64,000 nt of DNA from a virus, in the IMG/VR virus record IMGVR_UViG_3300031963_000020, positions 1 to 64,000 of that record; one strand, written 5' to 3'. Positions 8,399 through 25,720 of the stretch are shown in pieces. How positions within the stretch are numbered: position 1 is the stretch's first letter; each line of letters starts with the position of its first letter. The notes under the pieces were generated by a model. The model did not search any database, had not been told where the DNA came from, and was given only the letters and a program-made list of their open reading frames with translations. The translations under genes were made by a program, and so were the position numbers.

Positions 8399-9535
8399 AT
8401 GCGATTACATCTACTAGGTATTCCGCATACTCAAACTACTTACGAGTTCAGCCATTGTGCGTTTACTGGTAAGGTAAAACGGTTTGCCCCAATGATGCAA
8501 TCGGTAGGATATGACGTTATTCATTACGGGGTAGAGGGAGCACATAGTGGGGCAACCTATGATGTGAATCTAATGTCGTTTGATGAATGGGCGGGAATTA
8601 GAACAAAATTATTTAATGAAATATACGGTAATCGTGATGCCATGCCATCCGACTTTATCGGTGATTTAGCGAATACTGGTAATGAATTGTATCAAACGTT
8701 CAATGCACGCTTAAAGATACAATTAGGAAGAAATCTTGACACACACGATATTATTTGTTTACCCTTCGGATTTGCCCACGATACGGCTATTAAAGATTTT
8801 CCAAATCCAAAAGTAGAAACTGGTATCGGTTACCCAAACTCATACCAAGACTTCAGAATATTTGAAAGTAATGCGTGGTATCATTACGAGATAGGTCGTG
8901 AAGGTAGAAGTGGTCACGATTATCATTGGGTCATTCCAAACTACTTTAAGGTTGACGATTGGGACTTCAATCCAAACCCAGAAGGATATGTCGCATACTT
9001 TGGTAGATTATCAAATATTAAGGGAGTGCATTTTATATCAGAAATAGCCAAAGTTCGTCCTGATTTAAAGTTTAAAATTTGTGGACAAGGTGACCCAACT
9101 CCATATTTAACTTCACCAAATATTGAGTATGTTCCACCTATTCACGGACGAGAGCGTTCAAAGTTTTTGGGTAACGCAATGGCAGTTATAATGCCAACAC
9201 GTTATGTAGAACCATTTGGTGGAGTTACCGTAGAAGCAGAACTCTGCGGAACACCAGTATTGGGTTCTTCATACGGAAGTTTTACAGAAACGGTTGAACA
9301 CGGAAAAACTGGATATCAATGTAGAACACTTGGTGATTTCTTAGCAGGATTAGAGCAAATTGAAAATGGTGCAATCGACAGAGCATATGTCCGTAATTTT
9401 GCAGTAGAACATTTTGATATGTACAAGTTGGCTCACAAATATGATGGTGCATTTAGACAAATTAATGATATATCAACTGATAAGGGATGGTATAGTAGAC
9501 GTTCAATGATTGGACCAATCACGAGGGTCGTATGA
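8399..9535 (+). CDS. Family 4-type glycosyltransferase (GT-B fold)
   Basis: 378 residues. The C-terminal half carries the GT4 donor-binding signature: GYVAYFGRLSNIKGVHFISEIAK, then KICGQGD, VPPIHGRERSKFLGNAMAVIMPTRYVEPFGGVTVEAELCGTPVLGS, with the EPFG...E pattern that contacts the nucleotide sugar. The N-terminal half would bind the acceptor. The enzyme would move a sugar from a nucleotide donor to a glycan, DNA or protein. It overlaps (ATGA) a UDP-glucose-dehydrogenase-like gene, so the pair may make and transfer a uronic acid-type sugar to host surface glycan or to the phage's own DNA or virion (inference). Confidence 0.8.
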   Translation: MRLHLLGIPHTQTTYEFSHCAFTGKVKRFAPMMQSVGYDVIHYGVEGAHSGATYDVNLMSFDEWAGIRTKLFNEIYGNRDAMPSDFIGDLANTGNELYQTFNARLKIQLGRNLDTHDIICLPFGFAHDTAIKDFPNPKVETGIGYPNSYQDFRIFESNAWYHYEIGREGRSGHDYHWVIPNYFKVDDWDFNPNPEGYVAYFGRLSNIKGVHFISEIAKVRPDLKFKICGQGDPTPYLTSPNIEYVPPIHGRERSKFLGNAMAVIMPTRYVEPFGGVTVEAELCGTPVLGSSYGSFTETVEHGKTGYQCRTLGDFLAGLEQIENGAIDRAYVRNFAVEHFDMYKLAHKYDGAFRQINDISTDKGWYSRRSMIGPITRVV

Positions 9536-10466: not shown

Positions 10467-10818
10467 GGGCCTGTCATGGTTTCGACGGGATGTAGATGAC
10501 TAAGCTTTGTATCCAGTTTGGTAATACTGGTGAAACAGACCACAAATTTCAACTGGCAACTCATACAGCCAACCTCTCGCCCTCGCTGCGTAAGCAGTAG
10601 AGCCGAAGGACCGATGACCTGACCCATATAAGGGTAATCGGACTTATCATATGGTGTAGTGTTAGTAACGGGTAGTAGCTAACATCAAACACAACTACCC
10701 TACGTCCGACTTATGTTTGTTCCTTGTCAAGAGGCGGATGAAACTAAACAAGGAACTATGTGCATAAACGCTTAGTAGGAAGCAGTCTCGGACGAGGGTT
10801 CGACTCCCTCCAGGTCCA
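10467..10818 (+). ncRNA. ssrA: Transfer-messenger RNA (tmRNA)
   Basis: 352 bases. The 5' end GGGCCTG pairs with 3' CAGGTCC (10811-10817), including the G3-U70 pair that marks alanine tRNA, with A as discriminator and no encoded CCA. The 5' part has the tRNA-like GTCATGGTTTCGACGGG typical of ssrA, and the 3' part has the T arm GGGTTCGACTCCC. The tag frame starts at GGC 10555 and runs to TAA 10591-10593, giving GNSYSQPLALAA, with the ALAA ending recognised by host proteases. tmRNA with SmpB rescues stalled ribosomes and tags the nascent chain for degradation. I see no smpB in the window, so host SmpB is presumably used. Confidence 0.95.
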
Positions 10819-22191: not shown

Positions 22192-22200
22192 AAGTAGTCG

Positions 22201-22271
22201 CGGGTGTCGTATAACGGCTATTACCCCAGCCTTCCAAGCTGGTGACGAGGGTTCGACTCCCTCTACCCGCT
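22201..22271 (+). tRNA. tRNA-Gly (anticodon TCC)
   Basis: Acceptor GCGGGTG/TACCCGC, anticodon stem CCAGC/GCTGG with loop CTTCCAA. Confidence 0.92.
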
Positions 22272-22275
22272 CTTT

Positions 22276-24418: not shown

Positions 24419-24511
24419 ATGCCACATCCAAAAAAGTGCGGAAAGGGTCGTCGTAAGATTGGCTCAAAGAAACGCAACAATCGTTGGAAAAATAGAAAGC
24501 GTAAACATTAG
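24419..24511 (+). CDS. Tiny Arg/Lys-rich protein (30 residues)
   Basis: ATG at 24419 with TTAGGAGA upstream. Very basic, with CGKGRRKIGSKKRNNRWKN at its core and one Cys and two His. It resembles the 36-residue basic peptide at 20397 in composition and location. It could bind RNA, DNA or the ribosome. Confidence 0.55.
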   Translation: MPHPKKCGKGRRKIGSKKRNNRWKNRKRKH

Positions 24512-24741
24512 TACTATCCGAGGCCTTTTCCCTACCTTTCACCTCGTTAACAGCCTTCGGGCGAATGGAAAGACATAATAAAATTTGATAGGGCGGGTTC
24601 TAGGGTCGTGAGGCCTAGAGACTTTTTGGCTCGTTTAGTTTTGATAAACAAGCAGGCGGTTCGGGGAAGTTCGACGGAATGATGTGTCCGCCTATATAAT
24701 GTTGACAAGAAAGCTGATATCTTTCAACACATCCCCCGTAT
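24512..24741 (+). ncRNA. Candidate structured noncoding RNA interval
   Basis: 230 bases without a supported gene. It holds hairpins GCC-TTCG-GGC (about 24552-24561), TCTAGG/CCTAGA (24598-24618), GTTTA/TAAAC (about 24635-24651), GGCGG/CCGCC (about 24655-24692) and GAAAG/CTTTC (about 24709-24725). A TTGACA at 24702 has no good -10. No known RNA family recognised. Confidence 0.4.
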
Positions 24742-24812: not shown

Positions 24813-24852
24813 CTTGGTTATGTTAAACTTTAATCCATTATGGAGCGTACAA

Positions 24853-25047
24853 ATGTACAAGTTCATTCTCGCAGTAGCAGTAATCGGTCTTTCGGCATGT
24901 GCAGCAAAGGAAGAAGTTCAAGGTGAAGTTGCAGCAGATTCAACCGCAGTAGTAGCACCAGTTGTTGCAGATTCAACCAAGATTGATACTGATTCAATCA
25001 AGTCACCAGAAGTAAAGCCAGTAGTAGAAGGTGAAGCAGCAAAGTAA
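24853..25047 (+). CDS. Small lipoprotein
   Basis: 64 residues from ATG 24853 (GGAG at 24842-24845). Lipoprotein signal MYKFILAVAVIGLSACAAKE with lipobox LSAC (Cys16). The mature part is a Val/Ala/Asp/Thr-rich flexible tail with a repeated 'aDST' pattern (AADSTAVVAPVVADSTKIDTD). Probably an envelope-tethered spacer peptide, for example an o-spanin-like lysis protein, but this is only inferred. Confidence 0.55.
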   Translation: MYKFILAVAVIGLSACAAKEEVQGEVAADSTAVVAPVVADSTKIDTDSIKSPEVKPVVEGEAAK

Positions 25048-25055
25048 TAATATAC

Positions 25056-25125
25056 GCGGTCTTAGTGTAACGTCAGCACGGTAAGCTTCCAGCTTACAAG
25101 AGCAGTTCAACTCTGTCAGACCGCT
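25056..25125 (+). tRNA. tRNA-Gly (anticodon TCC), second divergent copy
   Basis: Acceptor GCGGTCT/AGACCGC, anticodon stem GTAAG/CTTAC with loop CTTCCAG. The T stem has an A-C mismatch, and the sequence differs widely from the first Gly(TCC). Confidence 0.8.
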
Positions 25126-25131
25126 CCACTT

Positions 25132-25222
25132 TGTAAGAACAATCCCGTGCGAGGTGTGGCGCACTCGTTGTGGTGGCGGGAAGAGTAGTATTAACTACTT
25201 GAAAGGGATCTGTTCTTACATT
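25132..25222 (+). ncRNA. Candidate novel small structured RNA
   Basis: A 10-bp perfect stem TGTAAGAACA (25132-25141) with TGTTCTTACA (25211-25220) continues as ATCCC/GGGAT across a one-base bulge. Inside are a GTGCG/CGCAC hairpin (25147-25164), a G/T-rich linker, and an AGTAGT/ACTACT hairpin (25184-25199). T-rich sequence follows. It is a closed three-way-junction-like RNA of about 90 bases between tRNA-Gly and tRNA-Ser. Not a tRNA (no T arm or anticodon arm). Confidence 0.65.
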
Positions 25223-25231
25223 TATTTTTCT

Positions 25232-25316
25232 GGACAGGTGGCAGAGTGGTCTATTGCAACGGTCTTGAAAACCGTCGAGCTGAGAGGCTCCGAGAGTTCG
25301 AATCCCTCCCTGTCCG
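25232..25316 (+). tRNA. tRNA-Ser (anticodon TGA)
   Basis: Type II. Acceptor GGACAGG/CCTGTCC with G73, anticodon stem ACGGT/ACCGT with loop CTTGAAA, long variable arm. Confidence 0.93.
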
Positions 25317-25331
25317 CTTAATGAGGTTATT

Positions 25332-25613: not shown

Positions 25614-25633
25614 CTTAAAACAACATAATCTAG

Positions 25634-25643
25634 ATATTTATAT
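25634..25643 (+). promoter_or_regulatory. ATATTTATAT element, late-promoter-like
   Basis: Perfect copy of the recurring motif, directly before a hairpin with T-tract and 78 bases before the Hsp20 start. Confidence 0.35.
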
Positions 25644-25644
25644 A

Positions 25645-25674
25645 GGACTCGCACCGCAGTGGTGGAGTCCTTTT
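25645..25674 (+). terminator. Intrinsic terminator closing the tRNA island
   Basis: GGACTC, bulged G, CACC / GGTG, GAGTCC (10 bp) followed by TTTT at 25671-25674. Confidence 0.65.
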
Positions 25675-25720
25675 CACCGTATCGCTCATTATGAGGATAC
25701 ACAATATAGGAGGTCATTTT

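Follow-up and report, generated by a model that had tools for sequence, protein, structure and literature searches.

What is the compact, strongly folding sequence that sits between two tRNA genes of a tRNA-rich phage, and what might it do? The locus lies in a window of 64,000 nucleotides, the whole stretch of DNA analysed here, which is part of a 148,340-base IMG/VR virus record and carries 29 tRNA genes and one tmRNA. A first-pass annotation had described a closed RNA of about 90 bases that fits no tRNA model and no known family, and had suggested its release by RNase P and RNase Z cuts on both sides.

The locus folds as a structured RNA with a predicted four-way junction

Folding of positions 25132–25220 (+ strand) gave a minimum free energy of −35.7 kcal/mol, compared with −21.2 ± 3.0 kcal/mol for shuffled sequences (z −4.77), and none of 200 shuffles was equally stable. 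The same fold was recovered when both flanking tRNAs were included. Few other stretches in the inter-tRNA gaps of the window's cluster have a similar z, and the lowest of these lie within ORFs; the short gap between tRNA-Thr and an Hsp20 gene (25615–25690) also has an unusually stable fold (z −4.6). When 25132–25222 was folded, the 15-bp closing stem appeared exactly as first described, with UGUAAGAACA and UGUUCUUACA forming 10 bp, a bulged C at 25210, and then AUCCC/GGGAU forming 5 bp. It encloses three hairpins (P2, P3 and P4) rather than the two originally noted. The T-rich tail, TTTATTTTT, is present as claimed, but the element proper stops at 25220, not 25222. The features of the locus are as follows, with columns referring to alignment A4, described below.

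24852–25049, + strand: small lipoprotein-like ORF, seen in the translations, upstream of the element
25056–25128, + strand: tRNA-Gly(UCC), upstream neighbour
25132–25220, + strand: whole structured RNA element, 89 nt (model match 1–89)
25132–25141, + strand: P1 outer closing stem, 5' strand UGUAAGAACA
25142–25146, + strand: P1 inner closing stem, 5' strand AUCCC
25147–25164, + strand: P2 hairpin GUGCG-(AGGUGUGG)-CGCAC, columns 17–34
25165–25179, + strand: P3 hairpin UCG-(UUGUGGUGG)-CGG, columns 35–49
25180–25182, + strand: junction J3/4, GAA
25183–25200, + strand: P4 hairpin GAGUAG...CUACUU, columns 53–70
25201–25204, + strand: junction J4/1, GAAA (GAWA in the family)
25205–25220, + strand: P1 3' strand GGGAU-(C bulge, 25210)-UGUUCUUACA
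25221–25231, + strand: T-rich spacer up to tRNA-Ser
25232–25317, + strand: tRNA-Ser(UGA), constant downstream neighbour and probable RNase P source of the 3' end

None of the 29 window tRNAs given by ARAGORN and RF00005 lies at the element. No family of Rfam 15, including the catalogued self-cleaving ribozymes, riboswitches, GOLLD, ROOL, YrlA and tmRNA, matched at or above its gathering score, and a permissive search with E up to 10 returned two chance-level matches and no known ribozyme family. Both statements of the first-pass annotation about family membership are therefore borne out. There is very little doubt about the structure of 25132–25220, a four-way junction closed by a stem of 14–15 bp.

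Covariation supports the fold in a single phage clade

Homologues were found in 15 IMG/VR contigs including the window's own, representing nine distinct sequences of about 85–90 nt that are 70–99% identical, and all of them belong to a single clade of tRNA-rich phages. An exact 17-base word from P3 gave the first three relatives in viral contigs. More divergent homologues came from whole-record searches of phages with the same baseplate gene, and the rest from cmsearch, using covariance models with a short calibration, and a degenerate pattern. The protein relatives of the baseplate gene are in Flavobacterium phages (Immutovirus) and Microcystis phage Mel-JY01, at 38–40% identity. Relaxed-pattern scans for further relatives reached the same clade only, and the last of them added none. 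Among 84,980 bacterial and archaeal genomes, scanned twice, no real match emerged: the pattern matches there resembled ordinary coding DNA and scored at or near chance. In 50,697 phage records the matches to the element were all short and of chance level. Phages that share only UvdE, primase or baseplate genes, many of whose records are fragments, gave no element match. Within the reach of these tools, the absence of matches beyond the viral contigs searched indicates that the family is limited to one clade of tRNA-rich phages.

The first-pass annotation had made covariation in homologues a test of its proposal, and covariation is present. In A4, which holds nine sequences of one clade, two-sided compensatory change is seen in 11 of 29 pairs (22 such cells). 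It can be seen that 96.9% of cells pair, against 33–51% when the partners are slid by 1–3 columns, and the covariation score was reached by none of 500 shuffles, a control that contains related sequences. Unguided, RNAalifold returned the same four helices. Examples of compensation are GAGUAG/CUACUU to GAACAG/CUGUUU in P4, which has two compensatory pairs; UCG/CGG to UUG/CAG in P3; and AUCCC/GGGAU to ACUCU/AGAGU (in L207) or GACACC/GGUGUC (in L209) in inner P1, which covaries freely. Some of these changes are common by descent, but those in P1 occur separately in L129/L130, L207 and L209. As + RNA, 251 of 259 cells are paired, as against 232 of 259 as − RNA; because of 23 G-U cells, the + strand is the best fit. 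Every tRNA gene and plausible protein gene around the element is also on the + strand.

Conservation is concentrated in the loops and junctions. The P2 loop (NRGYGUGR), the P3 loop (UUGUGGUGG, invariant), the junctions GAA (invariant) and GAWA and most of the P2–P4 stem sequence are conserved, as is a six-pair stretch of outer P1 (UAAGAA/UUCUUA, invariant); the remainder of outer P1 covaries. Variation falls in the P4 loop, which differs in both length and sequence, and midway along P1. Support for P2 comes from conservation only, with no compensation and one A-C exception, and for P3 from conservation together with one covarying pair (C-G to U-A). Retention of loops and junctions while the sequence of the outer stem changes suggests that the RNA offers a surface for binding and is not a spacer. 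Since the homologues come from one clade, the loops may be invariant in part because too little time has passed for change, and descent accounts for the sharing of several compensatory changes. In the most distant case, L209, the element is conserved at 0.76 and tRNA-Ser at 0.58, so that the element is at least as well conserved as its tRNA neighbour.

The downstream neighbour is constant and the upstream neighbour varies

In the window the element lies 3 nt after tRNA-Gly(UCC) and 11 nt before tRNA-Ser(UGA). The 5' end of tRNA-Ser falls 3–13 nt past the element in all nine sequences, with L210 standing for the L207 type. Upstream, tRNA-Gly(UCC) or a degenerate relic of it (in L009) lies 3–7 nt away in five of the nine (the window, L005, L009, L052 and L053), and in the other four (L129, L130, L207/L210 and L209) the element adjoins the lipoprotein-like ORF directly, starting 1–6 nt past its stop codon. 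This ORF lies upstream of the element in all sequences that could be checked. The edges of the element are thus 1–13 nt from its neighbours on both sides, a spacing as tight as for a discrete gene.

These arrangements bear on the proposed excision by RNase P and RNase Z. With tRNA-Ser so close downstream, a 3' end made by RNase P is plausible in most members. At the 5' side tRNA-Gly is available in five of nine sequences only; two-sided release is therefore not general and fits part of the family, and the 5' end of the four elements that follow the ORF must have another origin.

The upstream tRNA-Gly of the window is a second tRNA-Gly(UCC), beside that at 22200–22272. It has a weak model score (41.7 bits) and the T-loop TGCAACT, and it is degenerate in L009 and L128 (about 7485–7558 in L128). 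It is possibly a special-role tRNA or a decaying gene. In L207 and L211 an HNH-type ORF is inserted between the element, identical to that of L210, and an intact tRNA-Ser. The insertion, an HNH-type endonuclease ORF at 9065–9572 of L207 and alike in L211, lies just within the tRNA-Ser start, and the intact tRNA-Ser that follows is not the version carried by L210, the relative that has no interruption.

Other features of the same phages

These phages also carry, immediately before tRNA-Gln(UUG), a second, larger and apparently structured RNA of about 185–230 nt; L207 and L210 likewise have it before tRNA-Gln. Its positions are:

window, about 24512–24741
L128, 6970–7182
L133, 7215–7396
L135, 6992–7171
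L130, 7034–7221
L209, 9278–9466

Among four relatives, nine of its 34 predicted pairs show two-sided changes, and interleaved GTCAA/TTGAC and GTAGAGT/ACTCTAC segments suggest a pseudoknot. It has no Rfam match, and in 100-nt windows the window copy did not fold better than shuffles. A tiny, very basic ORF (MPHPKKCGKGRRKIGSKKRNNRWKNRKRKH, 30 aa) occupies 24420–24512 of the window, between tRNA-Ile and this second RNA, and is conserved in L128, L133, L135, L130 and L209. The window's tmRNA (10467–10818) is given an unusually long tag by ARAGORN, ANIKHNYPTSDLCLFLVKRRMKLNKELCA, without an ALAA end, unlike the tags of UvdE-sharing phages (GNNQLALAA and similar).

Possible roles of the RNA

Set beside one of the serine tRNA genes of this clade, and with a conserved branched shape of about 88 bases outside the catalogued families, the RNA makes a good candidate for a phage RNA that is both new and functional. 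What is observed is its sequence and structure, their covariation and conservation, the strand and the place in the genome; from these we infer its transcription, processing, stability, trans action and partner as follows. The best explanation, to which we give about an even chance, is an uncatalogued phage non-coding RNA that is cut from the tRNA-region transcript, protected by its stem and acts in trans through its loops and junctions. The RNA would be transcribed inside the tRNA-region operon and then excised. Its 3' end would be set by RNase P at tRNA-Ser, and, according to the neighbour, either tRNA 3' processing or a different nuclease would trim its 5' end as far as the closing stem. 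The long closing stem would protect it against decay. Action in trans, which we consider evenly balanced, would proceed through the purine junctions and two G-rich hairpin loops that hardly vary, and the target, bound during infection, would most likely be a protein or RNA of the host tRNA or translation machinery. Antisense pairing of the UUGUGGUGG loop with phage targets was not above chance, its complement occurring six times in the window against 3.2 expected, without enrichment. Pairing of the P2 loop (GAGGUG) with the anti-Shine-Dalgarno sequence was set aside, as the match is lost in L052 and L053.

The constant adjacency of tRNA-Ser counts against the trans explanation, as it fits a role in cis too. 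The RNA might be a leader of tRNA-Ser(UGA), with no separate life of its own, that keeps the tRNA precursor apart from the mRNA or tRNA before it and offers RNase P its site. A fixed distance range of 3–13 nt downstream in nine of nine sequences, together with the varying upstream neighbour, is what this would lead one to see. However, a spacer has no need of invariant loops, tRNA-Ser has diverged more than the element in L209, and in L207 and L211 the HNH gene parts an unchanged element from an intact tRNA-Ser, though this insertion may be recent. We consider a leader unlikely.

Proximity to the ORF raises instead a cis-acting site bound by a ligand or by a protein of phage or host, a 3'-UTR or operator element regulating the lipoprotein-like or downstream genes. 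The ORF is upstream wherever this could be checked and ends 1–6 nt before the element in four of nine sequences, but in the other five tRNA-Gly or its relic stands between them, and its maturation would cut the site away. Such a role is quite unlikely.

The element also sits at an mRNA/tRNA boundary. It is small and has several branches, its loops and junctions are conserved and its outer stems vary in sequence, so that there is a slim chance of its being a self-cleaving ribozyme of an undescribed class, parting mRNA from tRNA in the polycistronic transcript. Against this, the permissive Rfam search gave no ribozyme family, no conserved candidate cleavage site was identified, and self-cleavage would double the work of RNase P. 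It is no more likely that phages use a new class of self-cleaving ribozyme or ligand-binding RNA at such boundaries with, as its core, the GUGCG-NRGYGUGR-CGCAC and UUGUGGUGG hairpins around the GAA/GAWA four-way junction.

A stem followed by a T-rich stretch recalls an intrinsic terminator of the upstream gene, which is very unlikely: none (a short G+C-rich stem and then a U-run) was called at the element, the stem base is A/U-rich, conserved loops would not be needed, and in L207, L209 and L210 TTT alone separates stem and tRNA, with no space for a tRNA promoter. A promoter within the element (TTGAAA-18-TATTTT) was also rejected, since the −35-like TTGAWA is conserved but the homologues have no correctly spaced −10. 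That the sequence is coding rather than RNA (GTG/ATG CGA GGT GTG ... TGG TGG ...) is hardly credible, for although each of the nine rows has an open frame of 13–17 codons and GTG becomes ATG in L009 at the cost of one base pair, the variable columns by codon position number 4/2/3 with no excess at the third, the window-lineage frame ends four codons early, and the compensatory changes at columns 36/48 alter residues while keeping the pair.

Comparison with known phage and bacterial RNAs

Bacterial Y RNAs (YrlA) are small RNAs with a long closing stem that mimic tRNAs. The window RNA is likewise small with a long closing stem, but it has no Rfam match and no tRNA-like arms, and a Ro/TROVE gene (PF05731) is absent from the 148 kb record, so that a Y RNA reading was rejected.

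GOLLD and ROOL, whose function is likewise unknown, are structured RNAs of phages or prophages that often lie close to tRNA islands (PMC12286853). They differ from the window RNA in being several hundred nucleotides long and nanocage-forming, and the window gives no match to the Rfam model of either.

The closest parallel, and a precedent for the favoured explanation, is T4, whose record annotates rnaC and rnaD (species 1 and 2 RNAs) as small stable RNAs in the tRNA cluster; their function is unknown (PMC9697503, PMC3014915). Like the window RNA they are small structured RNAs inside a phage tRNA cluster, but they measure 139 and 119 nt and match our model R2 in neither sequence nor structure, and the rnaC fold has a tRNA T-arm-like 3' hairpin that the window RNA lacks. 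Model R2 matches nowhere in the whole T4 record, and when the T4 tRNA region was scanned without filters the top hit, at 13.4 bits, fell outside rnaC and rnaD. Lack of homology to these RNAs and of any GOLLD or ROOL match indicates a new family within an already known kind, phage tRNA-region RNAs of unknown function. Its structure is supported by covariation and its conserved loops are clear, which gives experiments by mutation, pull-down and probing a well-defined target. Should it act in trans, small regulatory or decoy RNAs missed by gene-based annotation may commonly reside in phage tRNA clusters; rnaC and rnaD lie in such a cluster without a known role, and the window RNA is a second, unrelated and strongly conserved case.
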